This document shows positions 572 to 24,100 of a stretch of 25,423 nt of DNA, one piece after another. The DNA is taken from the IMG/VR virus record IMGVR_UViG_3300021083_000290, positions 1 to 25,423 of that record; one strand, written 5' to 3'. The stretch comes from a virus. The notes under the pieces are model-generated. The model made no database searches, was not told where the DNA came from, and worked only from the letters and a program-made list of their open reading frames with translations. Position 1 is the first letter of the stretch, and the number at the start of each line of letters is the position of its first letter. The position numbers and the translations under genes are program-made.

Positions 572-609
572 CCTTGTCCAAGCCGATTGGACATGGTATA
601 GTATCATAA
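572..609 (+). promoter_or_regulatory. Promoter with overlapping palindromic operator before terminase small subunit
   Basis: TTGTCC (574-579) and TATAGT (597-602) are 17 bp apart, the ideal sigma70 spacing, and the -10 is extended (TGGTATAGT). A perfect 7-bp inverted repeat TGTCCAA-N5-TTGGACA (575-593), extendable to CC...GG at 572-596 with one mismatch pair, covers the -35 and most of the spacer, where a repressor or activator would act. The expected transcription start is near 609, which is the A of the first ATG of the terminase frame. No T-run follows the palindrome, so a terminator is unlikely. Confidence 0.5.
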
Positions 610-1097
610 TGACATCAGTCGCCGTTATGGGTAGACCTACAAGCTATTGCGACTCAATGGGTAAGCGGATTTGCGACCGGCTGGCGGCCGGTGAGTCCCT
701 GCTGAAGATCTGCAAAGATCCAGAGATGCCGAGTCGGTATTGTGTGCATGACTGGATAAAGAAACAGCCACAGTTCGCGAGCGACTACGCGTGCGCAAAA
801 CAGGCCGCCGGAGAGCTATTTGCCGAGGAAGTGCTGGAAATAGTCGATGCCGATCTGCCAACGCTTGACGATGGCCGCATCGATCCCGGCATGGTGCAGC
901 TCCTACGCCTGAGAGCTGACACGCGCAAATGGGTCGCGGCACATCTCAAGCCGCATGTCTACGGCGAGAAAGCGGCATCAGTGACCATCCAGACCACTGG
1001 CCCTACACTGGTCGTCACTGGTCTACCAGCACCGACTAGCACGCCAGTGACAAACCAGGCTCAGGATGTGTCCATAACTGACGCTGATAAGCCATAA
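609..1097 (+). CDS. terS: Terminase small subunit
   Basis: This protein would bind the phage packaging site and hand the DNA to the large terminase subunit. The 162-residue product has the usual layout of phage small terminases: a GRPTSY start followed by a helix-turn-helix-like segment (about residues 17-50, with GESLLKIC, then MPSRYCVHDWI), a helical middle (FASDYACAKQAAGELFAEEVLEI), and the typical DTRKWVAAHLKPHVYGEK stretch before a Thr/Pro-rich tail. The family normally begins close to MGRP, so ATG 627 (residue 7) is a real alternative start. Neither ATG has a Shine-Dalgarno sequence, and the promoter position suggests a leaderless message starting at 609. The large subunit lies 3 kb away on the other strand, which is unusual. 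Confidence 0.85.
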   Translation: MTSVAVMGRPTSYCDSMGKRICDRLAAGESLLKICKDPEMPSRYCVHDWIKKQPQFASDYACAKQAAGELFAEEVLEIVDADLPTLDDGRIDPGMVQLLRLRADTRKWVAAHLKPHVYGEKAASVTIQTTGPTLVVTGLPAPTSTPVTNQAQDVSITDADKP

Positions 1098-1288: not shown

Positions 1289-1379
1289 CACTCTTCCCAC
1301 AGATTTTTCACACTCTTCCCACAGATTTTTCACACTCCTCCCATAAGTTTTTCACATCACTCTTCCCATAAGTTTTTCA
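1289..1379. repeat. Array of four 22-bp tandem repeats (iteron-like)
   Basis: Copies lie at 1289-1310, 1311-1332, 1333-1354 and 1358-1379. Copies 1 and 2 are identical. Copies 3 and 4 change CAGA to TAAG in the centre, and copy 3 has one extra C for T. A 3-bp CAT separates copies 3 and 4. Each unit is CACTCTTCCCA, then CAGA or TAAG, then TTTTTCA. A degenerate fifth copy with a T8 run follows at about 1381-1405. The 22-bp period equals about two helical turns, so bound proteins would lie on one face of the DNA, as with iterons. Because 22 is not a multiple of 3, a coding repeat is unlikely. Confidence 0.85.
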
Positions 1380-1526
1380 CGCTTGAGCCATAGAGTTTTT
1401 TTTCAACGCTATGTGGTGATTCATATTGATGGCCATGGCAGGGGTATCTGATCATCGTCTGCACGATACCTTGTCTAGTGACAGCATTTTGCCTAAATGC
1501 AATGGGCAGTAGATACTCGGGTTATA

Positions 1527-1651: not shown

Positions 1652-1996
1652 ATGACTCGGATACCACGTTCTCATAAGCAATTACAGGGACCATGGGGGC
1701 CTATTGTCCAGTTGACGTGCATGCAGTGCCGAGGGGACTTCAGGACTCACTTTGCTGAGACGGAGTTCTGTTCCAATCATTGCATGGTCGAGTATCGCAA
1801 GTTCCAGAAGCGCATCCCAATGCCTGAATCAACCGGTTCACGTAAGCCACTGGCTGAGAAGCGGGAATGCCCGGTCTGTAGGAAGATGCAGATCGCCAGG
1901 TTCTTTGTGTGCATGCGCAAGACCGGGATTGCAGTCTGTGGGCATCAGTGCCGTGATCGCTTGATCCGTCAGGAGTTGACTTCCAAGGCCCTATGA
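1652..1996 (+). CDS. Double zinc-finger-like hypothetical protein
   Basis: From ATG 1652 the product is 114 residues with two matching cysteine modules: C23-x2-C26 with C40-x3-C44 (FCSNHC), and C73-x2-C76 with C96-x3-C100 (CGHQC). CxxC followed about 15-20 residues later by CxxxC is the pattern of treble-clef or MYM/TRASH-like zinc fingers, and its repetition suggests an internal duplication. Each finger is followed by a basic stretch (EYRKFQKR, RDRLIRQ), which would suit nucleic-acid or protein binding; that is inference. A GGGTG lies about 8 nt before ATG 1652. Upstream TTG 1607 and ATG 1610 are possible but have no ribosome-binding site. It opens the small-gene cassette between the terminase genes. 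Exact function unknown. Confidence 0.65.
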   Translation: MTRIPRSHKQLQGPWGPIVQLTCMQCRGDFRTHFAETEFCSNHCMVEYRKFQKRIPMPESTGSRKPLAEKRECPVCRKMQIARFFVCMRKTGIAVCGHQCRDRLIRQELTSKAL

Positions 1997-2037
1997 CCTA
2001 TGACTCCACCAGCATTGGGGTCGCAGCCAGTGTCAGT

Positions 2038-2103
2038 CGAGTCTCGGGATAGAACCCGGACTCGCACCATCTCCTATGAATCCTAGGTCATCAGCCTAGG
2101 ATT
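2038..2103. other. Two strong hairpins in a 250-bp gap (structured RNA or terminator-like)
   Basis: Hairpin 1 (2038-2064) pairs CGAGT with ACTCG and TCGGG with CCCGG across a single bulged C, with loop ATAGAA. Hairpin 2 (2079-2103) is a perfect 9-bp stem, AATCCTAGG with CCTAGGATT, around the 7-nt loop TCATCAG. No clear T-run follows (ATTTGTCGTT), so a strong intrinsic terminator is doubtful. On the minus strand the pair resembles a T-arm plus an anticodon arm, but a full tRNA cannot be folded. The rest of the gap from 1997 to 2247 shows nothing else. Confidence 0.4.
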
Positions 2104-2247
2104 TGTCGTTAGGTACCGTGCAACGCGGCTGCTTGGAGAGCAGTGGAACGGTGTCATCTGACCGGCTCACCACCAATGCTTTCCTTCTTTCTCATTGGCT
2201 GGTGAGCGTGGTCTTGACTTGGACGGGACTTGGACAGGATCAGCGGC

Positions 2248-2472
2248 ATGATCTTATGTTCACGCTGCAAGCTGACGGTCAATGGCGTGCGCACCTTCCA
2301 CTGTGCGATCTATGACTATTGGCATCACCGTGAAATGGTGAATACCGCCAGGGCTAACCGGCTCTACCGCATACCGACACCCAGGGACCATCTCAGGGAT
2401 CTCTGCCCGCACTGCGTGACCATGATCCAGTCGTCACTCACCGCATCACTGGAGATGGCCAATGCCTCTTGA
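2248..2472 (+). CDS. Small zinc-ribbon-like hypothetical protein
   Basis: The 74-residue product starts MILCSRCKL. C4-x2-C7 near the N-terminus and C53-x2-C56 (LCPHC) near the C-terminus can form a four-Cys zinc site; H18/C19 and H26/H27 are further candidates. ATG 2248 has AGGAT 9-13 nt upstream, whereas the in-frame TTG 2230 lacks a good site, so ATG is chosen. Its stop overlaps the start of the next gene by 11 bp, which implies coupled translation. Family unrecognised. Small zinc-ribbon proteins of phages are often regulators or host-takeover factors, but nothing here fixes the role. Confidence 0.65.
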   Translation: MILCSRCKLTVNGVRTFHCAIYDYWHHREMVNTARANRLYRIPTPRDHLRDLCPHCVTMIQSSLTASLEMANAS

Positions 2473-2677
2473 GGACACCAATGTCAGTGGGATGGTCGCG
2501 TTCATCATGCATATGATGGCGCTCTATAATAGGTCAGTTGAGGTTGGTGCTGATGGCAAGTTCTCCACGATGTCTACCACCAATGAGCAGGGAAGACCGG
2601 TCCTAGTCACCATGGCTGTCGGTGATGGCGTTGAGGCACTGCATACGATCCTGCGCACCAATGGACATCCCGTATGA
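2462..2677 (+). CDS. Hypothetical protein, 71 residues
   Basis: Starts at ATG 2462 inside the end of the preceding gene, with GGAG 8 nt upstream, and ends in an ATGA overlap with the following gene. The N-terminal half is Met-rich and hydrophobic (MVAFIMHMMALY). The C-terminal half (RPVLVTMAVGDGVEALHTIL) has the look of a small alpha/beta domain. No motif is recognised. Gene status rests on position, overlaps and the ribosome-binding site. Confidence 0.6.
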   Translation: MPLEDTNVSGMVAFIMHMMALYNRSVEVGADGKFSTMSTTNEQGRPVLVTMAVGDGVEALHTILRTNGHPV

Positions 2678-2835
2678 GCATCGATGATGTCGTTGAGATG
2701 GCTACTGATGCCATCCTCCATGCCGCCAAACTGGATGGCGTCAGGATCACCACGGGACAGGCCAGAACCTATGCCATGGCGGTACTCATCGCCATGGATC
2801 TCGTAAACACTGATAAGAACCAGGAGCATGGATGA
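2674..2835 (+). CDS. Hypothetical protein, 53 residues
   Basis: ATG 2674 lies in an ATGA overlap with the preceding stop, and the frame closes with TGA at 2833-2835, itself overlapping the next start. The product (MSIDDVVEMATDAILHAAKL...) is acidic and probably helical, with no Cys and no membrane segment. There is no strong ribosome-binding site, consistent with translational coupling. Function unknown. Support is the two-sided overlap in a tightly packed cassette. Confidence 0.6.
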   Translation: MSIDDVVEMATDAILHAAKLDGVRITTGQARTYAMAVLIAMDLVNTDKNQEHG

Positions 2836-3158
2836 CGTCCACGCTACCACCACTCAGCATCTGGAGTGAATCGCATCTCTGCGATAACCGGGGCAACCGC
2901 GTGATCCAGAAGACGCTGCTGGTGGAGAACGAGATCTCCTGCGGCATGTTCGGCAAGACCGAGTTCCATGCCATCCGAGTCATGGGTCTGCCAACACCAC
3001 AGGGTATGCAGATGCATCAGTACACCTTCCTCATCAGGGGAGCGATCACTGCCATGGAAGCATTCGAAATGGCCGAATCACAGAAGGATCGCGGCATGCG
3101 TGAAGAGGTCGAGCGGCTCAAGGCGGATGCCAAAAAGCAGTCCCTGAGGGCGCTATGA
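2832..3158 (+). CDS. Hypothetical protein, 108 residues
   Basis: ATG 2832 is coupled to the previous gene by ATGA, with AGGAG about 5 nt upstream. Residues 10-75 look like a beta-rich domain (NRVIQKTLLVENEISCGMF, MQMHQYTFLIRG). The C-terminus from about residue 78 is a charged helix (MAESQKDRGMREEVERLKADAKKQ) likely to form a coiled coil. No known family is recognised. It ends in an ATGA overlap with a tiny membrane-protein gene. Confidence 0.65.
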   Translation: MTSTLPPLSIWSESHLCDNRGNRVIQKTLLVENEISCGMFGKTEFHAIRVMGLPTPQGMQMHQYTFLIRGAITAMEAFEMAESQKDRGMREEVERLKADAKKQSLRAL

Positions 3159-3268
3159 TCCACGTGATATTGCTCTTCTACTGTGTCGGTATCGCTGCCA
3201 GTGTCTTCGGTCTTACCTATGTTGGCTTCCAGGTAGTCGATAAGATGACTAAGATGAGACAGAAGTGA
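3155..3268 (+). CDS. Predicted 37-residue single-pass membrane protein
   Basis: ATG 3155 overlaps the preceding stop (ATGA) and TGA 3266-3268 abuts the ATG of the next gene. Residues 2-26 (MIHVILLFYCVGIAASVFGLT...) are continuously hydrophobic and long enough to cross the membrane once. They are followed by a basic tail, DKMTKMRQK, which by the positive-inside rule would be cytoplasmic. Small phage proteins of this kind can be holin-like, anti-holin or superinfection factors, but no lysis genes lie nearby and the role is unknown. Confidence 0.55.
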   Translation: MIHVILLFYCVGIAASVFGLTYVGFQVVDKMTKMRQK

Positions 3269-3493
3269 ATGAGCCTCTACCTGACCGACCGAACCGCATA
3301 CTGGCGGAAGATGAAGAAAAAGCAGCGCAAGCGGGAGCGTGCCAAGAACCGCCAGATGCGGAAGAACTTAGACGATATCCTCCTACCATCGGAGGCTATT
3401 GCTCATGGCAGCCCCGCCGCTACCGAGGCGATTGAACCCATAATCCCCGCCAAGAGCCTGGATGACATCCTCAAGGAGATCGAAGGACTATGA
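3269..3493 (+). CDS. Basic hypothetical protein with repeated LDDIL motif
   Basis: A 74-residue product with two parts. Residues 13-33 are strongly basic (RKMKKKQRKRERAKNRQMRK), suited to nucleic-acid contact. The remainder is acidic/hydrophobic and contains LDDIL twice (residues 34-38 and 64-68). The start directly follows the previous stop, and the end overlaps the next gene by ATGA. The repeated LDDIL could be a short linear motif binding a partner; that is inference. No family recognised. Confidence 0.6.
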   Translation: MSLYLTDRTAYWRKMKKKQRKRERAKNRQMRKNLDDILLPSEAIAHGSPAATEAIEPIIPAKSLDDILKEIEGL

Positions 3494-3642
3494 TACTGCA
3501 ACCGAAACGACCACCAACCGAGCTGGAGAAGATGGCTGATGCCAAGTATCGCAAGCTCGGCCTGCCGCCACTCCCCAACATCAAGGATCTTCGTGGACCG
3601 CCCATCCAGATCCTACCATCACATCGCAGAGGAAAGAAATGA
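3490..3642 (+). CDS. Hypothetical 50-residue protein, partial paralogue of the next gene
   Basis: It starts in an ATGA overlap at 3490 and ends in another at 3639-3642. The product is rich in Pro and basic residues. Its segment ADAKYRKLGLPPLP (from about residue 16) closely matches ATEKYEKLGLPPIP at residues 7-20 of the next protein, so the two genes appear to share a duplicated element. It has no cysteines. Function unknown. Confidence 0.6.
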   Translation: MILQPKRPPTELEKMADAKYRKLGLPPLPNIKDLRGPPIQILPSHRRGKK

Positions 3643-3914
3643 ACGCCGCTCAGATCGCCACCGAGAAGTATGAGAAGCTCGGCCTGCCACCCATCCCAAT
3701 GCCAGTACCGCTTCAGCAGCAACTCCTGAATGGGCGGATCTTCAAGTACAAGATCCCGCGCTGCCCAGGTTGCGGCCAGATGAACCTGGATACCAATGAG
3801 TTGCTCATCACCGCACACCATGAGATCGATTGCCTGGCAGTCGCCAAGGTATCGCTGATCGCAAAACTCAACTCCATCCCGCGCTGGATCAGATGGGCAT
3901 TCAATGCCATCTAG
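3639..3914 (+). CDS. Zinc-finger-like hypothetical protein with KYxKLGLPP element
   Basis: A 91-residue product preceded by a good site (AGAGGAAAG) and coupled by ATGA. The N-terminus carries EKYEKLGLPPIP, shared with the preceding gene. C42-x2-C45 (RCPGCG) with H61-x3-C65 (HEIDC) forms a likely CCHC zinc site. The C-terminus (SIPRWIRWAFNAI) is amphipathic and Trp-rich. The next gene has the same CxxC then H...DC arrangement, suggesting relatedness. No function can be assigned; a nucleic-acid or polymerase-binding role is only a guess. Confidence 0.65.
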   Translation: MNAAQIATEKYEKLGLPPIPMPVPLQQQLLNGRIFKYKIPRCPGCGQMNLDTNELLITAHHEIDCLAVAKVSLIAKLNSIPRWIRWAFNAI

Positions 3915-3929
3915 GAAACAGGTGATCAG

Positions 3930-4106
3930 ATGGGCGCAGTCATCAAGTGGCAGAACTGTAGGCGCTGCTTGTTGCCCATCCAGTCAGGTAAGGTTGGCAT
4001 CAAGGACCAAGGCCCGATATTCGATGGAGCCTACCATCTGGATTGCGCGCTCATTATAATTTTCCACAACTGCCGGACTCCACCAGGCCAGCGGCGGGCT
4101 CAGTGA
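3930..4106 (+). CDS. Small CCHC zinc-finger-like protein, end of cassette
   Basis: A 58-residue product with C10-x2-C13 (NCRRC) and H36-x2-C39 (YHLDC), the spacing of a treble-clef/LIM-like zinc site. The ribosome-binding site AGGTGATC (3920-3927) is an extended match to the 16S rRNA 3' end and 2 nt from ATG 3930, arguing for strong independent initiation. The gene runs tail-to-tail into the large terminase gene, overlapping its end by 7 bp, and no terminator separates the converging units. Function unknown. Confidence 0.65.
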   Translation: MGAVIKWQNCRRCLLPIQSGKVGIKDQGPIFDGAYHLDCALIIIFHNCRTPPGQRRAQ

Positions 4107-5467
4107 CCGCGCATGCAATCCAGCGCATCGTAGTCAGATACCAGGGTGCCACCAACGGTGGACTCGGCTTGGCCCAGGATGCCGAAGTGGTGTAATTGCT
4201 TCTGCGCCACATGATAGCTGAAGCTGAGCGCACAGGCATCTCCGAGATCTGGCGACATGAGCCCACGTTTCTTCATCTCATCCTTGCCCTCGAGGCAGAC
4301 GCGATCCTTCATGTCATGGCTATAGGTCGGTCCACAGAGATCCTGGAAGAGCTCAGGGATATTGGGAATGTGGCCAGTCTCTTTGACCCATTTGGCCAGA
4401 CGGCCCCACATCTCGGCACGCTTGTTCAGATACTCATTGCCATCAGCTTTGCCACCAAACTGCACCTCTGTGACGTTATGATTCAGGCTGCGCAACCGAT
4501 CGATCACACCAGCACCATAACCACCGGAACCATCGATGAAGACAGCATCCGGCTTGCGCTGCTGGATGATCAGGGCAATGCGTGCAGCCAGCTCCATGGT
4601 GTCAGGGATCTTCCAGATCCATGGCTTGTCCATGAACAGTCCTTGCCGTAGGACACAGGCGGATCGATCCTCGCCCTGTCGGGCAATGTCGATGCCAAGG
4701 ATGATCGGAGCGAATTGGAACTGATCTGGAGTATAATGCCGAGCCGCGGCAGTCTGGCAGTCAGCGAAAGTGATCATGACGTTCTCGGTGGCGGCTGAGA
4801 AGTCGCAGAGGTATTCACGGGCGAACTTGGCGGGATCCATGTCGGCCTGCATCTGCTTGATCTGATCAGGTGTAAACACATCGGTATGATGGACATCATA
4901 GAATGCCGTGAACCAGCGATCTGGCTTTTGCAGGGCGGCGAAGTAGGTCTTGCTGAGTAGATTGATGCCATTGGCCGTGCCGCAGAAGACGGCGAAGCCC
5001 TTATAGTCAGTGAGCTGAGGATAGATGACGGAGGCCCAGAGATCTTCGGGAAGTTGGGCCACTTCGTCCAGGATCACGCCATCAAGGTAGGCACCACGTA
5101 GGCTATCAGGCTCACTGGCACCATAGAGCCTGATGGTATTGCCATTGGGGAATGTCGCACTGCTCTCACTGGCATTGAGCACCACGCCAGGAATCTTCCC
5201 GGCATAGTGCTTCAGGTAACCCCAGCAATTGGACTTTGCCTGCTGGAGTTCTGGAGAGATGAAAGCGTACCGGGCTGGTGCGTGCTCACGACCCTTGGTG
5301 CTCTTGGAGATGCATGAATCGATCAAGAGCATGATCATCGCCAGGCTCTTGCCGGCCCGGCGGTGACAGACTACGACACTGAACTGGCGGCTACGAACAC
5401 CAAGATAACAGGCATATTGCCACGTTCGTGGCCTATGCCCAAGATCCACGGTCTTTGATGCCGCCAT
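4100..5467 (-). CDS. terL: Terminase large subunit (packaging ATPase/nuclease)
   Basis: The motor that pumps DNA into the prohead through the portal and cuts it. In the 455-residue product: RPRTWQ (Q17) as adenine-binding motif, Walker A CHRRAGKS at 34-41, Walker B VILDE at 131-135, coupling motif FCGTANG at 161-167, and an RNase H-like nuclease with acidic residues D260 (LGIDIARQGEDRS), D312 (VFIDGSGG) and D410 (LGDACALS). Length is normal. ATG 5467 is chosen because it is 4 nt after the stop of the upstream gene and fits the family's N-terminus; a GTG at 5521 would add 18 residues and a 50-bp overlap. It is on the opposite strand to the small subunit and all virion genes, which is unusual. 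Confidence 0.92.
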   Translation of the reverse strand: MAASKTVDLGHRPRTWQYACYLGVRSRQFSVVVCHRRAGKSLAMIMLLIDSCISKSTKGREHAPARYAFISPELQQAKSNCWGYLKHYAGKIPGVVLNASESSATFPNGNTIRLYGASEPDSLRGAYLDGVILDEVAQLPEDLWASVIYPQLTDYKGFAVFCGTANGINLLSKTYFAALQKPDRWFTAFYDVHHTDVFTPDQIKQMQADMDPAKFAREYLCDFSAATENVMITFADCQTAAARHYTPDQFQFAPIILGIDIARQGEDRSACVLRQGLFMDKPWIWKIPDTMELAARIALIIQQRKPDAVFIDGSGGYGAGVIDRLRSLNHNVTEVQFGGKADGNEYLNKRAEMWGRLAKWVKETGHIPNIPELFQDLCGPTYSHDMKDRVCLEGKDEMKKRGLMSPDLGDACALSFSYHVAQKQLHHFGILGQAESTVGGTLVSDYDALDCMRGH

Positions 5468-5471
5468 GAGA

Positions 5472-5849
5472 TCAGGTTCGCTTGACGCGACCGTAGATAT
5501 CGATCCGTGCCCCAGATCCACTGATCGCCGTCACATTCAACCGGATCATCTGCTTATAGAGCGTTACCAGTTTATATTTAGTGGCGATGAGATTGCTGTT
5601 GGTGGCCATCGATTGCGAGCTGCCGATGTTGGCCCAACTGGTGTTGTTATTCGCCACCTGCCATTGGACAGTGGCAGTAAGGCTGGTCCCGCCACTCAGG
5701 ATGACATACAGTTCCAGCGGCATATCGCGCAGCTTCTGTGGTGAACTCGCTCCGATGGGGCCAAGTGCCACCGAGTCTCCCTGGGGAGAGAACCACTGGC
5801 TGGCTCCAGTGCCAGTCAGATTTTGATCGATGATGAACGTGTCTGACAT
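5472..5849 (-). CDS. Beta-rich decoration-like hypothetical protein
   Basis: A 125-residue protein with alternating hydrophobic and polar residues, many Ser/Thr/Asn and no cysteine. The core LELYVILSGGTSLTATVQWQ...TSWANIG, followed by IRLNVTAISGSGARIDIYG, looks like a single beta-sandwich of the type found in phage head-decoration or tail-associated proteins. It resembles in style the cement protein at 10721-11170 and the insert in the nozzle protein. GGGAG lies 7 nt before the ATG. It is first in a two-gene leftward unit with the large terminase, 4 nt apart. A structural role is inferred from composition only. Confidence 0.7.
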   Translation of the reverse strand: MSDTFIIDQNLTGTGASQWFSPQGDSVALGPIGASSPQKLRDMPLELYVILSGGTSLTATVQWQVANNNTSWANIGSSQSMATNSNLIATKYKLVTLYKQMIRLNVTAISGSGARIDIYGRVKRT

Positions 5850-5946: not shown

Positions 5947-6432
5947 ATGCCGCTGATTGACACCGAAGTCCGCTTTGTCCGTGAGCCGTTGATGCCGGTT
6001 TTGGATCAACTCATGCCCTTGGCGATGGCCCATGACATTGAGATCGATGGTCGTCCTGATGTGCCTTTGGACATCGACCGGGAGGCGTTCACCTTCTGGG
6101 AGCAGAACGGCGCTCTGCGCTGCTTTCTGATGCGATCAGGGGAGATTATCGCTGGATATGGTGTATTTGTGGTCGTGAGAAACCCATTCAAGCGGTCCAT
6201 GATCATGGGGTTAGAGTCAGCCCTATTCCTGGCGCCGGGGTGGCGGAAGACCGGCTATGGCTCCCGCTTCATCACCTGGCAGGACCAGCAATTGATCGCC
6301 GAGCACCCAGGGATTGTGATCAATCGTCACTGTAAGGTCGATCACGACCATGGCGGCATCCTGGTCCGCAAGGGCTATGTGCCATTTGAGGTTGTCTACC
6401 AGCTTCGCCAAAAGGATAAATCCCATGGCTGA
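5947..6432 (+). CDS. GNAT-family N-acetyltransferase of phage morphogenesis cluster
   Basis: 161 residues with the GNAT layout. The N-terminus VREPLMPVLDQLMPLAMAHDIEI contains helix alpha-1, followed by LRCFLMRSGEIIAGYGVFVVV (beta strands 2-4). GLESALFLAPGWRKTGYGSRFI holds the acetyl-CoA pyrophosphate loop (R/K-x-x-G-x-G type) and the next helix. The C-terminal part contains GYVPFEVVYQL. Small GNAT genes beside the portal gene are common in podoviruses of this sort. The substrate is unknown; modification of a virion or host protein is possible. It is the first gene of the rightward operon and its stop overlaps the next start by 8 bp. Confidence 0.8.
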   Translation: MPLIDTEVRFVREPLMPVLDQLMPLAMAHDIEIDGRPDVPLDIDREAFTFWEQNGALRCFLMRSGEIIAGYGVFVVVRNPFKRSMIMGLESALFLAPGWRKTGYGSRFITWQDQQLIAEHPGIVINRHCKVDHDHGGILVRKGYVPFEVVYQLRQKDKSHG

Positions 6433-6718
6433 TCCAGCTTCTGCTACCGCGAGCGCTATCATCATCTCATCGCTGATTGCCGCAGGCACCACCGTTGCGG
6501 TTGCCGAGTCCAATAAGCCACAGACCCCGTCTCTACCGCCTACTCCAGATACGCCGACCACTCCAGCCAGTACGACTACCAATATCGCAACATCGGTTCC
6601 TGGTGCTCAGGCGGCAGCCGCTACTCAGGGTGGTACCCTCTTCGGCACACCGCCAGGAGAGAACCAGAGCGATCAGGCTGCTGGTGCTCGCAAGAGCCTG
6701 CTAGGTAGCGGGGGATGA
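6425..6718 (+). CDS. Small protein with N-terminal hydrophobic segment and Pro/Thr-rich linker
   Basis: 97 residues. Residues about 8-28 (ATASAIIISSLIAAGTTVAVA) form a likely membrane-spanning or glycine/alanine-packed helix. Residues 33-55 are Pro/Thr-rich, and the C-terminus ends ARKSLLGSGG. AAGGAT lies 8 nt before ATG 6425, which is inside the end of the GNAT gene, and the stop overlaps the portal start (ATGA). Similar small hydrophobic, proline-rich proteins sit before the portal in other podoviruses, but their function is not known to me. A minor virion protein is a fair guess. Confidence 0.7.
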   Translation: MADPASATASAIIISSLIAAGTTVAVAESNKPQTPSLPPTPDTPTTPASTTTNIATSVPGAQAAAATQGGTLFGTPPGENQSDQAAGARKSLLGSGG

Positions 6719-8439
6719 TCCTCTCTCCATTCGAAGAGATGCTACGCACCGGCGACCCGATGCAGTTGCGTGCATACTATGAGTCGCTCAGGGCAAGGCT
6801 GAATACCGAGAAATCAACCTGGGACCGTCAGTGGGGTCAGCTCGCACGCTACCTGCTGCCATATTCACCGCGCTTCAATTATTCAAATGTGGACATGGGA
6901 GAACGCCGTGATGGCGACATCGTTGACAATACAGCCACCTTGGCCACCCGCGTGCTCAAGGGCGGCATGGCATCATGTATAACCAATGCCAGCCAGGAAT
7001 GGTTCCACATTGAATCTGAAGACGATTCCGTCAATGATTTGCCTGAAGTTCGTGAATACTTCCAGGAAGGTGCCGATATCGTCCGCAAGGTGTTTGCACG
7101 CGGAAACTTCTATCCAACAATGGTCAACTACTATGGCGAGCTAGGCGTGTTCGGAACTAGCTGTTTTGCGCTGATGGAAGACGCCGAAGACACCATCCGC
7201 TGCTATCCATATCCAATGGGAAGCTACTGCATCAGCGGCGACTCGACTCTGCGCATCCAACTGACCATGCGTGCCTATGAGGCCAATGCCTTCCAGTTGG
7301 TCGAACAGTTCGGATACCAGAACTGTTCATCGGCGCTTCAGAGCTACTACGACTCCACCGCAGGCGGTGTGAAGGAGCAATGGTGGCCAGTGGTGCAGTT
7401 CGTCCACAAGGCGAGCTATTACGGTGAGCGGGCGGTCAAGTCAGGCAAGTACAAGCCATGGGTCCGCGTGGTCTATGAGCTTGGGGCGCTGGGCAATAAG
7501 GCTGGTCCGACTCTGCTCTGCCAGGATGGATTCTATGAGAACCCGATCATCACCACCCGTTGGGATGTGATCGGCGAAGACTTCTATGGCCGTTCGCCCG
7601 GCATGGATGTGCTGGGTGATGTGATGGGCTTGCAGCTCAATGAGCGCAGAATCACTGAGGCCACCGATAAGATGGTCAAGCCGCCGATGGTGGCTGATAG
7701 CCGCATGCAGAATGCGGCCATGTCGATCCTGCCTGGTGGCATCACTTATGCCGACACCCGCGATGGGAAGGCTGGATTCCACCCGGCTTTTCAACTGGAT
7801 TTCAAGACACAGGAGGCCAGCAACCGTTCTGATCTGATGCGCCAGCGTATCAAGACCGGCTTGTTCCAGGACCTGTTCCTGATGATCGCTGGTTCTGACC
7901 GCCGCGAGATCACTGCGGAAGAGATCCGCGCCAAGCTGGAAGAGCGTCTGTTGGTGCTGGGTCCGGTGCTTGAACGGGTCAATGATGAGGGACTGAAGCC
8001 GATCGTTGAGCGTAGCTGGGCCATCTGCCGCCGAGCAGGGCTGATCCGCAAGCCGCCCGAAGTGCTCAAGGGCAAGGAGATGCGCTTCCGGTTTGAGACG
8101 GTATTGTCACAGGCATTACGCCTGAAGAAGACTGCTGGCATGGACCGGCTGACCGACTTCGTTGAGAAGATCGCCCAGGTTGATCAGACGGCACCAATGA
8201 CCATTGATACTGGCGCAATGATACGGGAATATGCGAAGGATCTGGCGGTTCCGCCATCGATCATGCGCGATCAGAAGCAGGTCGATAAGATGGTGGCTGC
8301 CCAGCAGAAACAGCAGCAGCAGGCGCATGCCGCCGATATCGCCCAGAAGATGGGTCAGGCAGCGCAGTCAGCCGCCAATGCGCCGACTGATGGCAATACG
8401 GCACTGTCCCTGCTCACCGGCCAGCAGGCACCTCCATGA
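6715..8439 (+). CDS. Portal (head-to-tail connector) protein
   Basis: The dodecameric ring at the capsid vertex through which DNA enters and leaves, and the docking site for the terminase. 574 residues, the usual size of the T7 gp8-like connector family. Family hallmarks visible in order: helical start with LRARLNTEKSTWDRQWGQLARYLLP, then DIVDNTATLATRVLKGGMASCITNASQEWFHIE, the GNFYPTMVNYYGELGVFGTSCF segment, ENPIITTRWDVIGEDFYGRSPGMDVLGDV, and ITAEEIRAKLEERLLVLGPVLERV leading to a Gln/Ala-rich C-terminus (KQQQQAHAADIAQKMGQAAQ). Coupled to both neighbours by ATGA overlaps. Confidence 0.93.
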   Translation: MILSPFEEMLRTGDPMQLRAYYESLRARLNTEKSTWDRQWGQLARYLLPYSPRFNYSNVDMGERRDGDIVDNTATLATRVLKGGMASCITNASQEWFHIESEDDSVNDLPEVREYFQEGADIVRKVFARGNFYPTMVNYYGELGVFGTSCFALMEDAEDTIRCYPYPMGSYCISGDSTLRIQLTMRAYEANAFQLVEQFGYQNCSSALQSYYDSTAGGVKEQWWPVVQFVHKASYYGERAVKSGKYKPWVRVVYELGALGNKAGPTLLCQDGFYENPIITTRWDVIGEDFYGRSPGMDVLGDVMGLQLNERRITEATDKMVKPPMVADSRMQNAAMSILPGGITYADTRDGKAGFHPAFQLDFKTQEASNRSDLMRQRIKTGLFQDLFLMIAGSDRREITAEEIRAKLEERLLVLGPVLERVNDEGLKPIVERSWAICRRAGLIRKPPEVLKGKEMRFRFETVLSQALRLKKTAGMDRLTDFVEKIAQVDQTAPMTIDTGAMIREYAKDLAVPPSIMRDQKQVDKMVAAQQKQQQQAHAADIAQKMGQAAQSAANAPTDGNTALSLLTGQQAPP

Positions 8440-9621: not shown

Positions 9622-10674
9622 ATGACCATCAACAATGCCACCGTAGATACCCTCCCGAACTGGGCCAAGGGCCGCGATCCTGATTCGATGAAGGCGGCTG
9701 AAGTCATCGAGATGCTCAACCAGAGCAACGAGGTGCCCAACTACCTGCCCTGGATGCAGGCAAATTCTCCGTGGCTCCAGCGCACGACTGCGCGAGTCGA
9801 ATTGCCCACCGTGAGTACCCGCCAGTTGGGCCAGGGTATTCCGATGAGCACCAGCCGTGTTGATCAGTTCGATGACACCATGTCGATCATGGACGTCTTC
9901 AACGAGGTCGATCTCAAGCTGGCGCAAGCTGGTGGCGATGTCGGCCAGTACCGCTACACGGCTGGACTGCCCTTCTGGGAGGCGCTCTACCAGAAGTTCA
10001 GCAATCTGTTCTTCTACGGCAACTCCAATGTGACGCCGTCCGACTTCAACGGCATGTCCACCCGCTACGCCACCGTGAACACTGCCACTGCGGCCAACGC
10101 CGCGAACGTGCTGGATGCCGGTGGAACCTCTACGGTCAACGCGTCCATCTGGATGCTGACCTTCTCTCCCAAGTCGCTCACTGGTATCTTCCCCGCTGGT
10201 TCGCCGGCTGGTCTGTACCACAAGGACTGGGGCGAACAGCTCAATACCGTGACTGCGGGTTACGGTGGTTCGGTCCTTCCGGTCTACAAGGACCAGTACC
10301 AGTGGACCTGTGGTATCACGGTTCCCGACTGGCGCTGGAACGTGCGCATCGCCAACATCGACACCAACAACTTGGTGGCCGAGGCTGGCGCAGCCGACCT
10401 CTTCAAGCTGATGAACAAGGCTATGTTCCATGTTCCTTCGATCAGCTACCCGCCCTCGACCACCGGCAATCCGATGTCGAGCATCAGCCCGCCCGGAATA
10501 ACGGTATGGGCCATGAATCGTACCTTGCAGCAGATGCTGTCGGTTCAGGCCAGCAACAAGGTCAGCAACCAGCTCTCATGGGGCGACTACCAGGGCCGCA
10601 AGATCCAGATGTTCCAGAACATGCCGATCATCAATACCGATCAGTTGACCAACACTGAGGCGCAGGTCGTTTGA
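9622..10674 (+). CDS. Major capsid protein (BPP-1/epsilon15 Gp7-like, HK97 fold)
   Basis: 350 residues. The N-terminal half carries the family pattern LPNWAKGRDPD, NYLPWMQANSPWLQRTTARVELPTVSTRQLGQG and MDVFNEVDLKLA, then LFFYGNSNVTPSDFNGMSTRYA. The second half has the diagnostic run SIWMLTFSPKSLTGIFPAGSPAGLYHKDWGE and WTCGITVPDWRWNVRIANID. These match the short-tailed phage capsid family of Bordetella BPP-1. GAGGTAG precedes ATG 9622. Codons look well-optimised (many GGT, ACC, AAC), as expected of an abundant protein. Cement and scaffold genes flank it. Confidence 0.9.
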   Translation: MTINNATVDTLPNWAKGRDPDSMKAAEVIEMLNQSNEVPNYLPWMQANSPWLQRTTARVELPTVSTRQLGQGIPMSTSRVDQFDDTMSIMDVFNEVDLKLAQAGGDVGQYRYTAGLPFWEALYQKFSNLFFYGNSNVTPSDFNGMSTRYATVNTATAANAANVLDAGGTSTVNASIWMLTFSPKSLTGIFPAGSPAGLYHKDWGEQLNTVTAGYGGSVLPVYKDQYQWTCGITVPDWRWNVRIANIDTNNLVAEAGAADLFKLMNKAMFHVPSISYPPSTTGNPMSSISPPGITVWAMNRTLQQMLSVQASNKVSNQLSWGDYQGRKIQMFQNMPIINTDQLTNTEAQVV

Positions 10675-16307: not shown

Positions 16308-18152
16308 ATGGCCGACACTCCACAGGACAATGTCCCGAGCCAAGTCTCGCAGGTCCAGCCTGACATCCGCGCTCCGGCCAACCTGACGCCAGCGGACTTC
16401 GGTGCATCCATCGGCCAGGCCGTTGAGGAAGCCGGTTCAAAGTTCCAGCGCGAAGAGGTCTGGGCGAATCAGGCTGCGGTGATGAGGGCGACTAATACGC
16501 TCAGCGACTTCACCAATCAGACGGTTTATGATGCCAAGACCGGCGTTGTGCATCAGGACCTTGGTTCAGATGCCCCAGGTGCCGTCAAGTCTGTGTTGGA
16601 TGATCACGTTGCCAAGATCAGTGAGATCAACGACAACCTGAACAATGATGCCCAGAAGCAGATGTTTGCCGCTCATGCGCAAGAGCACATGCGTGGGCTG
16701 GATCGCTCGCTCAATGGCTATGAAGCCGAGCAGATGACCCGTGCCAATAACCAGCAGACCGAGGCATATGTCAAGAACACCTCTCAGTCTGCTGTCAGGG
16801 CCGGTCTAGAGCCTCCACCAGCAGCGGGCATTCCAGATCCCGTCAAGGTTCGCATTGGGCAGGTGGCTCAGGCCATCCAGCTTCAGGGCAATGCCAACCA
16901 TCAGCCACAGGCGTTCATCGACCTTCAGAAGAACAATGCCATCAGTGCCATCCATGCTGGCATAGTCGATGCGCAACTTGCCAACAATAATTACTCTGGC
17001 GCATCAGCCTATTACGATGCCAACAAAGGCGCGATCAACGAGCCTGAGGCTAGCCGTCTCCAGAATGCGCTGAAGTCGCAGGATCTTGATAACCAGGCGC
17101 AGCAGCTCCAGCGCCGGTATGCCATCAATGATGATGGAACCATGGCTACGCGGTCGCAGTTCCTGGCCAAGATTGATGATCCGAATAACAAGGATCTGGT
17201 AGACAACGCCAAGCTCTATGACAAGGTGGCAGAGAGGGGAGAGCGTCACTTCGTCATGGCTGCTCAGGCAGATCGCGCCGACCGTGATCAGGTTATGCAG
17301 ATCATTGGCAAGGGGATTGAAAAGAGCCAGGGCGCGGCTGATCCGCAGAGCCTCGTTCTTCCTTCTGATTACCAGAAGCTTGATTATGACGAACGTCATG
17401 CCATGGATAACCTGAAGAATCAGTATTTGAAGAAGGATCGTCCTCAGGGATACACACCTAAGGAATATGAGCTGGCTCAGTTGGCTACAAGCGATCCAGA
17501 GGCTTTCAAGGCGACCAATCTGCTCAAGTTCTGGCCAGATCTCAGTGATGGCGGAACTGAGCGCCTAGGCACCCGTCAGGCTGCCATGAAGGGCGATACT
17601 CAGGCTGCCAGCAAGAGCCAGGATATTGAGAGCCGTCAAAAGACCGCTGACTACTTCCTGGTTGCTCAGGGAATCAGCCCGACCGACAATACCAACATCA
17701 CGCCAGCCAATAACGAGAAGCGATATCAATTCCGCAAGCAGTTCGACGAGGCTGCCGATCTCTGGTTGCAGGGTAATCCTGGCAAGCGCGTGGTGCCTCC
17801 CGATCAACTTGAGGCCATTGGCAAGAAGTTGGTGACTGAACTCTACTCACCGAGCAATGATCACACCATCGCGCATCCTTTCGGCGGCACTCATCAGGTT
17901 GATCTCGGACCAGCGTACATGAATCCTACGCGGTCTGGAATCGATGAGCCGGTCAATCCAGTCCCAACCAAGGCCGAGATAGACAGTTGGCAGCAGATGC
18001 TCAATCGGAAGATCAGCGATCCTGGTAGGCAGGCAGCCGTGCAGAAGCTGCAACGCTGGAAGCAGGGAACGACACAGACCGGTGGGCACGATCCTGCTCT
18101 GCAACAGTATTACCAGCATCTCAGCACGGCGCTGGGCGTAGATGAACCATAA
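16308..18152 (+). CDS. Internal virion protein (T7 gp15-like ejection protein)
   Basis: 614 residues, almost entirely helical and rich in Gln, Asn, Asp and Ala, without cysteines or membrane segments in the parts I read. It begins MADTPQDNVPSQ. Long helices follow, such as NNDAQKQMFAAHAQEHMRGLDRSLNGYEAEQMTRANNQQTEAYVK, and AYYDANKGAINEPEASRLQNALKSQ has a repeat-like (TPR-style) feel. Proteins of this size and position form the middle tube of the ejected conduit in T7-like phages. No lytic transglycosylase motif is seen. Its TAA stop shares its last A with the ATG of the next gene. Confidence 0.7.
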   Translation: MADTPQDNVPSQVSQVQPDIRAPANLTPADFGASIGQAVEEAGSKFQREEVWANQAAVMRATNTLSDFTNQTVYDAKTGVVHQDLGSDAPGAVKSVLDDHVAKISEINDNLNNDAQKQMFAAHAQEHMRGLDRSLNGYEAEQMTRANNQQTEAYVKNTSQSAVRAGLEPPPAAGIPDPVKVRIGQVAQAIQLQGNANHQPQAFIDLQKNNAISAIHAGIVDAQLANNNYSGASAYYDANKGAINEPEASRLQNALKSQDLDNQAQQLQRRYAINDDGTMATRSQFLAKIDDPNNKDLVDNAKLYDKVAERGERHFVMAAQADRADRDQVMQIIGKGIEKSQGAADPQSLVLPSDYQKLDYDERHAMDNLKNQYLKKDRPQGYTPKEYELAQLATSDPEAFKATNLLKFWPDLSDGGTERLGTRQAAMKGDTQAASKSQDIESRQKTADYFLVAQGISPTDNTNITPANNEKRYQFRKQFDEAADLWLQGNPGKRVVPPDQLEAIGKKLVTELYSPSNDHTIAHPFGGTHQVDLGPAYMNPTRSGIDEPVNPVPTKAEIDSWQQMLNRKISDPGRQAAVQKLQRWKQGTTQTGGHDPALQQYYQHLSTALGVDEP

Positions 18153-21100
18153 TGGCTGGCCCGGCTGATATCACACCGCCATCGCCAACGCCGCAAGACG
18201 GTGGTGGCACGCCGCCAATTCCAGATCAGTCTGCTCCGGCAGTACCGCCACAACCATCACATGACGAGCTGCTGCTGCAGGGGCTTGAGGCACTTGATCC
18301 ACTCAGTGATGTGCGCAAGACGCTGCGATCAACTCCAGCGGTAGCGCCAGCGCCCGATATGACTCCTCAGATCAAGACGGCTGATCTGATCGCGCAGCAG
18401 TACACCCCAGAACGGGCGGCGAAGCTATCTGCACTGGCAGACAAGACTGGGTTTACTCCAGAGATTTTGGATACGATGTTTGATGACATGCAGCGCAAGC
18501 AGCAGTCATCTCAGACCGATGTTCAAGAGCTTCAGGATTACCATAAGCGTCTAGCCAATTGGGTCACTCAGCCCATGAATGCCGCTATCGCCCGTGGCGA
18601 TCTACCGGCACTCACCGCGCTATCAGCATCGCTTCAGAATGTGGTTGGGGCTCCCGACAATCGTCCATCTGAGCCATGGGGCAATGTCATCAGGACTGGC
18701 CTCAATGCTACCAACCACGGTTTGAGCGTACTCCTGGATACTGTGCCTGCGATGGCGGAACTCTATGCCCGCAAGGCCATCGGCGCAGATACCACCACCA
18801 CTAATCAATTCACTCCGCTTGGTGCCTATAACTGGGACCAGCAGGTCCATGCAGCGGATGCTGCCCAGGCTGAGCAGTTCAAGCCAAGCGGACTCAAGGA
18901 CTTCTCGCGCAGTCTGATCACTACGCTGGCTGATCCAATGACGTACGCTGTGCCGCTGACTGGTGCAAAGCTGGCATTGAACTCAACCAAGGTGATTGAA
19001 GCGGTTGCCGCCAAGGGCCCTGTCGCGGAACTTCATGCCGCCGATCCTTTGACCATGGGCACCCTCCAGGGGACCAAGACGGTCGAGCATGTTGGTGAAC
19101 AGCTCCTGGGCGATGTCAACAAGACCAAGTTGGCACTGACAGGCGCAGGTGCTGGCCAAGGAGCACTGGCAGGCGCGCAGACCGCTGCCCAGCAATCTGA
19201 GCAGACCAAAGAGCAAGATCCTGGCGTGCTCGCCAACACCGCCAATGTCGCTGCGCAGACGGCGTTGGGCTACTTCTTCGGCAAATCCGGTGGATTGATC
19301 GGTCTGCTGCGCAACTTGCGAAGCACTCCGTGGACCAGTTCGCCGATACGTGACTATGTCACAGACATTGGCCGTCAGTCCATCATCGGCGCGACCCAAG
19401 CATCTGTCGGCAATGCCGTTTCCGGTACGCTCACCGGATCTCCCATTGATAGCATTGAGGCTGCCTTGAGTGGCGGTATTGCAGGCGCTGCACTTGCTGG
19501 CGTCAATCTGCATGAAGCAATGGTCATGCAACATCACCTAACCAGATTGCAGAACTCATCGGCGCTTGAGAATGCTGGACGCCTGCTCCAGACCTTTGAG
19601 TCCGCTCAGCAGAGCAAGGCGCAGCAACTGGCACCTGATCAGACTGGCAAGTTTGAACAGGAGATTGCCCGTGATGGCATCAGCCATCAGTACCTTACGC
19701 TCGATCAATTTCAGGATCATCACCTATCGTTGGACCGTGATCCAGCCAAGGCTGCACAAGACGCCGATCTGATGGCTGAGTATCAGAAGGCCAAGTCACT
19801 TGGCACGTCTATGCAGATCCCAATGAAGACGGTCACTGAGATGGGTGCCGAATCCAAGGAACCAGCGCTACTCGCAGCCGAGTTCCGCCAGCATCCCGAT
19901 GCGCCGAATGGCCGTGAAGCGGTCACCTTCTATCAGGGCGGTGGCGATGATCAGGAACTCAACAGTAACCTTGCTCTTGCCAGCCAACAGGTTGAGGCTG
20001 GCCGTGGCGCTGGCGACACCAAGGGCCAGATGATCGCTGACGAAGTGTCGGAGCAGGCTCGCCGCTCAGGGACTCCCGCCGAACAGGCTGATGCATTAGG
20101 GAAGATCCATCAAAGCATCTGGCAAACGCTGGCTGGGAAGATGAATGAGGGCCGTCTGGCAGCAGGACTGCCAGAGATGACTGCCACCGATCTGCGCGAT
20201 CACATGTCGCTCAATATCATGGGAGTTGCGCCGCGCTTCCTCCAGGAGTTGGTAACGACTGGACACGCTGATGGTATCCTGAATAGGATGCGTACCGATG
20301 GGCCAAAGACAACAACCGAGCAACTGATCCGCCGCAATCTGATGGATCTCGGCTTGGATGTCCACAAAGATAGCAATGAGGATATTGTACAGGCGGTCCA
20401 GAAGCATATTGAGCACCTGAGTGGCCAAACCCAAGAGCAGCATGCCAAGAATCTGGCCGGTGATCGTCCAGTAGTGCTGGAAGGGCACCCTGGCACTACG
20501 CACAATCAACCGATCATTCCAGTAGAAGGCGATGATATCAGCCGTGTTTCATTGCTGCGACAATGGCGTGCGAAGCATGGTGGACGCCTGCCTGATCCAA
20601 ATGACAAGGAATGGCAGAAGCTAAAGTCCGAGTCTGCCATCATCGACCGGCAGCGGTTGAAGCAGCGCCAGCGCCAAGCTGATGCCGAAGCGGCGAAATC
20701 GGCTCAGCGCAAGCCACATGGTTCCTATGATGCCGCCCAAGATAAGCGCAATGCCAATGCCGTAGAGAAGTCGATGGGTCGCGCTGCGATCCAGGAGCAC
20801 CTCAAGCAGACGCTGAAGGAGATGGACCGCGTCCCTCTCATCACTGCTGGCCATGTGCCTTATGGCATGGGCATGAATGCCGATGGCAGCAAACTCTATC
20901 GCGATCCGAAGTTCCCTTTATCTGTGAAGTTGCCTGGTGGCATCACAGTCGATACCAAGGGCGCGACCTCAGTTCATGAGGTCACCGAAACTCGCCTCAT
21001 GAAGTCCGGTGTGCCTTATGAGCATGCGCATGATATCGCCAATGCCGTGGAGCGCGAATACCTGCGCGGCCAAGGGTTTACCGAAGCGCAGATCGATGAG

Positions 21101-24100
21101 TATGAGAACTCATTGAAACCAGGATTGCGCAATACCAGAGAGTGGACCGGCAAGCCACCTGCTGATCTGAACCCAGCGCCCTATGTCGCTGAGGGTGAAA
21201 CCAAGCTGCTCCATCCACCAGGCGAGCGCACCACTAGCAACCAAGGCGAAGACGAAGTTCGCGGCAGCTTCACCAAGATCAATCTCGCCCAAGGCGGATT
21301 CCGTGGTGTGATGCAACTCTATTCGTCCAAGAATGCCAGTACCGCATTCCATGAGTCAGCGCACTACTTCCTAGAAGTGATGGGACGTCTCACCGAGATG
21401 GAGGGTGCACCGCAGAGCCTCAAGGACGACTTCCAGAAGATCATGGAATGGTCCGGCTATGGTGATCGCGCCACCATGCTGGAGATGCAATCTCAACTCG
21501 CTGATCTGCAATTGAAGATCGGTGATCGTGCACCTACGGATGAAGAGAAGGAACAGCTTGCCACGCTGAATGCGCCTCATGAGCGATTCGCCCGTGGCTT
21601 TGAGCGGTACCTGCGTGAAGGTGTGGCGCCTGCCAGCAATCTGCGCAAAGCCTTTGCCATGATCAAGGGCTGGATGCTGTCAGTCTATAAGAGCGCGTCT
21701 GAATTGAATGTCGAATTGAACCCAGAGATCCGCGAAATCTTTGGGCGCATGCTCGCCAGTGATGCCCAGATCGCCAAGGCCAAGGAGCGCGTGTCTGACA
21801 ATCTCGCATTCGAGAATGCCAGTGACGCCGGTTGGACTCCAGAGCAGCATGAAGCCTATCTCAAGCTAGCAGCAGAGGCCGATCAGCAGCAGAAGGATGA
21901 GTTGGAGAAGGAGAACGTCAGCATCTTTGAGCGCACTCTGACCAAGGCGTATCGCGATGAGCAGCGGGCCACCCGCGCCCGCGTGACCGATGATGTTGCT
22001 CAGCAGCGCGTCTACAGCGCCATGAATGCCCTTCAGAATGGCAAGACTGGTGATGGTCGTGAAATCGGCCTAGATAATTTCAAGATCAGCAAGCTGGACG
22101 TTGAACGCATCCTGGGCGATCACATTGGCCAGCTCCCTGGTCCAGGTGCTGAGCGTAATTCTGGTCGCAATGTCTACTCACCTGAAGGCATGCCTGCTGA
22201 TACCGTGGCCAAGATGCTGGGCTATAAGGACGGCGTAGAACTGCTGACTGATCTGGCCCAAGCGCCAGACCGCAAGACCGTCATCGATCAGCAAGTCGCT
22301 CAGCACATGAACGATCGGTATCCCGATCTGATGAAGGATCCTGCGCGCATGCAGGAGGCCGCAGATCGCACACTCCATGATAACGATGCCCGTCAGCGCC
22401 TGATGGACATGGAGCGAGCCCAGCTCATCGCCCTGGACAAGATGCAGCGCGAACAGGCGAAAGCGGTTGATAAGCAGGATAAGGCTGAGGCTGGTGCCGC
22501 TGCTGCGGACGAGAAGGCGCGCCAGGATACGCTCAAGCAGCATCTGGCAACGGTGCGCGAAGAACGTGCTGGGATGCGCCTGGCAGCAGAGCAGACCATC
22601 CAGGACACCAAACTCAGCAACTTCTCACCAGATCAATTCCAGGCAGCAGAGCGTAGGGCTGCCATCAATCTACGCGAAGCGATGGTCAAGAAGAAGTGGC
22701 AGGAAGCCATTGTCCTCAAGCGCCAGCAGATGATGAACTCTGAGTTGTATCGTGCTGCGATGGACGCCCGTGAGCAGGCGTTCAAGGATCAGGCCAGACT
22801 GGCTCGCTATGGATCAGATCCAGAGCTGCGCAAAGCCCTTGGCAAGGCCACCGGTTATGAGTGGCAAGCCAAGATGCCAGATGGCACCATCAATCGCTAC
22901 CATGATGGCAATGATGAGACGAATAAGGCTGCCGCTATCAAAGATGCCCAGGATCACATGGGCACCTATGAGCGCACGAACACTTATCTGGATCAGATAG
23001 ACCATCTTTTGTATCTATTCGACATGAAGAACCAGACTCCGCGTGCGCTCCGCCGCATGCAGAGCCTGCGCGACTTCCTCAACAGCGAAGAGTATTTCGA
23101 TGGTCCTGATGGTGAGCGGTATCCGCTTGGCCTGACCTCCAGCATCCCTGATTGGATCAAGGATCAGGCATCCAAGACCAACTGGAAGGATTTGACCATC
23201 CAGCAGCTTCACGACCTGCGCAGTGCCGCTCAGCAGATTGAGGCGCTGGCCAAGTGGAAGAACAAGCTGACCAGCAGCACCAATAAGGCCGATCTCAAGG
23301 AAGCGGTCGCTGAAATCGCCGCCGTGCTGAAGGAGAACTCACTTGGGAAAAGGTCTAAGAAGATTGGTGTCGGTGCTGCCGAAGGGCTCATCAAGGCAAC
23401 CAAGAACTTCAAGGAATCGCTGAACCAGATGAACTGGACCATCTATGGGATGGACGGGTTCAAAGAGGGTGGTCGCCTATGGGATCTCTTTATGCGTCCT
23501 CGGCAGGAGGCGGCAGACCGCGAACTGGCGCTGCACGAGAAGTACAAGAACGCACTCAATGAAGCGATGGGCGAATGGGGCAAGGTGACCCCGCTCAACC
23601 CCATTAGCCTAAACATGCGCTTCAAGGTCCCTGGTACTGATGTATCGATCAGCCATTGGTCCAAGATCATGGCACTGATGCACTACGGTAATCCAGAGGG
23701 CCGCCAGCGCCTGATGGACGGTTACAACTGGTCGCATGAGACGGTGCACAAGATCATCGATACCCTGGATGCCAAGGACATCAAGTTCGCCAATCGCTTG
23801 GTGGACATCATGTCCATGGATTGGTCTGCGGTGAAAGAACTGGCTGAGCGCCGTCAGGGGATCGCGCCACCCAAGGTAGAGTCGATCCCGGTTGATATGC
23901 CCAATGGCCAGTACAAGGGCGGCTACATGCGCCTGTACTATGATGGTCTTTCCAAGGAGAAGATCGAGAACATCTCTACCGATGCCGCCTTTGATGGCAT
24001 GCGATCAGGGGCAGTTTCCAACATGGTAGAGGCTGGCCATCGCAAGTCTCGAACCGCGGTGCTCAAGGACGTAACGCCTAGCCTAGATCCCAATAGCTGG

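Follow-up and report, generated by a model that had tools for sequence, protein, structure and literature searches.

Ten small coupled genes between opposed terminase genes in a podovirus genome fragment

Ten small genes crowded between the two terminase genes of a phage raise the question of whether they work together as one system or are held together by their arrangement only. Such a cassette occupies positions 1652 to 4106 on the plus strand of IMG/VR record IMGVR_UViG_3300021083_000290, between the genes for the small (terS) and large (terL) terminase subunits, and an initial annotation singled it out as the likeliest site of a new system. The window, by which we mean the whole stretch of DNA that was analyzed, is this record of 25,423 bases. 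It is classed as linear and is probably a fragment of the genome of a short-tailed phage (podovirus), with the replication genes lying outside the fragment.

Genomic setting and the opposed terminase genes

The terS gene (609 to 1097, plus strand; PHROG 1482, E = 5e-35) may start at 627, and terL (4100 to 5467, minus strand; PHROG 2, E = 3e-38) probably starts at 5467, judging from the sequence. Upstream of terL, and apparently coupled with it, is a minus-strand ORF of 125 amino acids (5472 to 5849), which has a homolog in a clade of viral contigs (L084, L086, L087, and L089). A GNAT-like gene (5947 to 6432) lies between the terminase and portal genes, a position that is common to phages MW202640 and MW202722 and the L084 clade. 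The portal gene (6715 to 8439; PHROG 332) is followed in the gene list by a protease/scaffold gene and then by the gene for the major head protein (MCP; 9622 to 10674), past which plus-strand genes continue up to a 2404-aa ORF. That ORF (18152 to 25366) adjoins the tail genes and probably encodes a giant ejected virion protein. The closest annotated records are the podoviruses MW202640 and MW202722 from Manatee Spring (TerL 44% identical), and the closest structural genes are those of the L084 clade (portal 48% and MCP 60% identical).

The cassette does lie between the terminase genes, as the initial annotation had it, with the refinement that terL is on the opposite strand. The two terminase genes are 3 kb apart, and terL is divergent from the portal gene. 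Among the loci that we fetched, terS and terL were codirectional in 16 of the 16 that had both genes, and terL and the portal shared a strand in 32 of 32. The last cassette gene, g10, overlaps the 3' end of terL by 7 nt, and the cassette runs tail to tail into terL. This opposed setting is more unusual than the cassette itself.

A layout without precedent in 16 codirectional relatives, combined with proteins for which no relatives were found, could be read as a sign that the operon is not real: the ORFs might have arisen by chance, or an assembly join might have put foreign DNA between terS and terL. We regard this as the least probable of the explanations considered. A distance of 4 nt separates the end of the 125-aa ORF from the likely start of terL (5467), so the two form a leftward operon of their own. 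The same ORF keeps its minus orientation beside the GNAT gene in the L084 clade, and a simple assembly join on that side is therefore less likely. The clade resembles the window in having the minus-strand 125-aa ORF followed by GNAT and a 97-aa-like ORF before the portal; it differs in having terL on the plus strand, with only 32% identity over part. The idea of chance ORFs is countered by the length of the gene chain, the phage-like codon bias, and the ribosome-binding sites described below.

Structure and coding potential of the ten genes

All ten small genes reported by the initial annotation are present. Five of the nine junctions are ATGA overlaps (g03/g04, g04/g05, g05/g06, g07/g08, and g08/g09) and one is an 11-nt overlap (g02/g03), in agreement with the earlier description of most junctions as ATGA or longer overlaps; g06 and g07 abut as TGA-ATG, and gaps of 251 nt and 15 nt separate g01 from g02 and precede g10, respectively. 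With a chain defined by ORFs of at least 36 aa and gaps of -12 to +20, the locus yielded a chain of nine ORFs at 2241 to 4110, while the longest chain in 1000 dinucleotide-preserving shuffles had six ORFs, and two was typical.

Synonymous codon choice in all ten genes was like that of the phage's own large genes (P = 0.0005 to 0.0055). In a simpler codon model, g03 to g09 had scores like those of real genes, and those of g01, g02, and g10 were lower, a deficit that probably stems from the scarcity of Cys and His codons in the genes used for training; g10 scored weakest in that model, despite synonymous usage that fits the phage. Shine-Dalgarno-like matches of at least 4 nt were found at 8 of 10 cassette starts, compared with 18% of other plus-strand ATGs; among the remaining genes of the phage, 7 of 13 have one. 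Chain length, codon bias, Shine-Dalgarno matches, and the Cys/His statistics given below therefore identify the ten, by sequence evidence, as real genes that are coupled.

The first gene, g01 (1652 to 1996; 114 aa), carries two CxxC...CxxxC modules and is probably a double treble-clef-type zinc protein, and g02 (2248 to 2472; 74 aa) has a CxxC...CxxC motif. No family could be assigned to g03 (2462 to 2677; 71 aa), g04 (2674 to 2835; 53 aa), or g05 (2832 to 3158; 108 aa), which we treat as orphans. The initial annotation had proposed structure prediction; AlphaFold models of g01 and g05, built from the single sequences with no alignment, were uninformative as to fold (pLDDT 41 and 57), with strands followed by two helices predicted for g05 at low confidence. 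The 37-residue membrane protein that had been described corresponds to g06 (3155 to 3268), with a single hydrophobic, predicted membrane-spanning segment (KD19 2.27). One highly basic protein had also been reported, and in fact two neighbors are basic by their balance of K+R against D+E: g07 (3269 to 3493; 74 aa; 16 versus 11), whose N-terminal half is very basic, and g08 (3490 to 3642; 50 aa; 12 versus 4). The last two genes are g09 (3639 to 3914; 91 aa), with a CxxC...HxxxC motif, and g10 (3930 to 4106; 58 aa), with CxxC...HxxC.

A KYxKLGLPPxP motif is found in g08 and at the N terminus of g09. It reflects an in-frame duplication (3544 to 3575 and 3666 to 3697; 81% identity over 32 nt) and appears to be the only sign of common origin among the ten genes. 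The DNA pattern for KYxKLGLPP had two matches in viral contigs, which we took to be chance, one being in an unrelated 59-aa frame and the other without a listed in-frame ORF of at least 30 aa.

The four Cys/His clusters (g01, g02, g09, and g10) are as the initial annotation described them. Three of the proteins (g01, g09, and g10) pass our motif filter, an outcome that shuffling of residues reproduced about 3 times in 10,000, and their paired ligand motifs are thus beyond chance; the CxxC...CxxC spacing of g02 exceeds the filter, and its motif was read directly from the sequence. Cysteine makes up 3.3% of the cassette proteins and 0.8% of the other window proteins compared. We consider it probable that the four proteins bind zinc.

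Searches for families, relatives, and comparable loci

None of the ten proteins had a convincing family match in Pfam, PHROGs, NCBIfam, or PADLOC, and the initial annotation, which recognized none of them, was right to call the cassette undescribed. The best family match was that of g01 to an HNH-endonuclease family (PHROG 1271, E = 6e-4), and it was confined to the Cys part; the sequence lacks an HNH motif, and we rejected this assignment. The same protein fell below the cutoff for NinG (E = 0.32; 11.3 bits versus 25.4), and a PDB match between it and Tim9 (E = 0.003) was discarded since the twin CX3C pattern is absent. A PARP1 zinc finger in the PDB (E = 0.5) shares only metal-ligand spacing with g10, and the PDB sequence matches of both g01 and g10 are at noise level. 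PADLOC, a library of defense proteins rather than counterdefense proteins, returned two partial matches only (E = 0.011 and 0.015), which do not place any cassette protein in a known defense family.

Searches for relatives gave a similar picture. tblastn of g01, g02, g05, and g09 against 50,697 phage records returned nothing better than E = 0.08, and no relative emerged when 2.9 million viral contigs were scanned with g01, g05, g09, and a joined g02+g04+g10 query, when g01 was compared with 18 whole related records, or when all ten proteins were searched with local phmmer against the ORFs of 134 loci. A portal-alignment search of genome contigs found seven distant relatives, 0 of 7 with the cassette, and our search of the literature on genes between terS and terL found no paper. 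These searches may omit very near records, so the absence of relatives is no proof of uniqueness, and the term "orphan" may be overstated.

The check on synteny proposed by the initial annotation gave a divided answer: small genes do occur near the terminase genes of related phages, but they are not the same ten. In MW202640 and MW202722, small ORFs lie upstream of terS, one per phage with paired CxxC motifs (18847 to 19080 in locus L082 and 828 to 1022 in locus L083); the proteins are unrelated to those described here, and terS lies next to terL on the same strand. Contigs L042, L044, and L057 have two to three small genes (45 to 105 aa), mostly overlapping, in the terS-terL interval itself, although these are fewer, encode unrelated proteins without a paired CxxC motif, and accompany a codirectional terL. 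The TerL ORF is 786 aa in L042 (4369 to 6729) and L057 (1963 to 4323) and 519 aa in L044, which is nearly identical; the additional segment of the longer ORFs starts CCFSPDMRVLTADYKWLPIG and resembles an intein. The L084 clade had no detectable counterpart of the cassette, and no coding cassette was detected in the terS-terL interval of L087. The small genes of MW202640, MW202722, L042, L044, and L057 indicate that small coupled genes of unrelated content recur around terminase genes, and such genes appear to have been inserted repeatedly in the terS-terL interval.

These comparisons also bear on the proposal of a new system, which we find unsupported: only coupling ties the ten genes together, and relatives and unrelated contigs carry other small genes near terS or between terS and terL. 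We therefore read the cassette as an accessory operon of orphan genes rather than as a demonstrated system. A useful comparison is the nin region of lambda, a set of small genes on one strand that has been called a chain of interlinked genes (PMC10695390 and its reference list) and that lies between the replication genes and Q, where all of its genes can be deleted with plaque formation kept (PMC10695390). The cassette shares with nin small codirectional genes chained by overlapping stop and start codons. It differs in sitting between terS and terL and running into terL, and homologs of nin genes were not found in it (no Pfam or PHROG match above cutoff). Judged on sequence, the cassette is not a nin member by homology.

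Phages often carry fast-evolving accessory cassettes of this kind. We think it probable that the ten form an accessory operon of the nin type, in which small orphan genes that evolve fast and are mostly unrelated to one another are coupled in translation.

Noncoding elements and possible roles

A noncoding stretch of 554 nt (1098 to 1651) separates terS from g01 and contains four 21-nt iterons, CTCYTCCCAYARRTTTTTCAC (1291 to 1380, plus strand), about 190 nt downstream of terS, where none are expected by chance. They are candidates for a cos or pac site, an origin, or a regulator site; a reading as DnaA boxes (TTTTTCACA, 3 copies) is weak. Folding of the 554-nt stretch was not beyond chance, whereas the 251-nt gap between g01 and g02 (1997 to 2247, plus strand) folds strongly (z = -3.2 for the whole gap) and includes two adjacent strong predicted RNA hairpins (2030 to 2110; z = -4.6). 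The hairpins matched no Rfam family, and we rejected tRNA or another Rfam RNA as their identity. With such a structure between them, g01 and the block from g02 to g10 may be on separate transcripts.

HNH proteins near terminases assist packaging in other phages, and the position of the cassette between terS and terL, the weak likeness of the g01 Cys part to the HNH-endonuclease profile, and the iterons close to terS could all fit a packaging accessory module, in which the proteins would assist DNA cutting or motor assembly and TerS would bind to the iterons as a cos or pac site. We judge this improbable, given that g01 has no HNH motif and that relatives with TerL 41 to 44% identical package their DNA without a detectable counterpart of the cassette.

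Another hypothesis is that the locus is a host-takeover or antidefense island, with several of the small proteins binding and inhibiting host RNA polymerase or defense complexes early in infection. Dense small-gene islands are often rich in inhibitors; small orphan proteins that are Cys-rich, basic, or membrane bound are packed here into a dense operon, and small-gene content differs among relatives. The proteins nevertheless match no known inhibitor or PADLOC family, PADLOC covering defense and not counterdefense, and a site beside packaging genes is no sign of early expression. We view such an island as possible, though unlikely.

In the accessory operon that we favor, the cassette would be read rightwards from the terS side as one transcript, and coupled reinitiation at the ATGA junctions would yield many short proteins made together. 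Each protein would most likely act alone, with a nucleic acid or a protein of the host or the phage as its binding partner. The four Cys/His proteins may serve as small metal-stabilized binding modules, g06 may act at the membrane, and g07 and g08 may act as basic proteins, all in what would presumably be dispensable, host-adjusting roles.

The downstream end of the operon adds a further consideration. We searched 3800 to 4400 for a terminator-like site and found none, Rho-dependent termination being outside what such a search judges. Because the cassette and terL meet tail to tail and this search gave no terminator, transcription of the cassette may continue into terL in the antisense direction, and the cassette and terL may be made at different times. 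From the convergent layout we speculate that the opposed terminase genes could be a timing device, in which the cassette, expressed early and encoding new zinc proteins directed at the host, produces an unterminated antisense transcript through terL that holds back packaging until cassette expression is switched off, perhaps via the iteron region. We hold this full scheme to be very improbable.

With no family match for any of the ten proteins, and no relatives found for those searched, they are reasonable candidates for screening one gene at a time for functions directed at the host. The apparent recurrence of insertions in the terS-terL interval could guide a systematic search, and the opposed terminase genes, with the cassette running into one of them, offer a testable case of antisense packaging timing.
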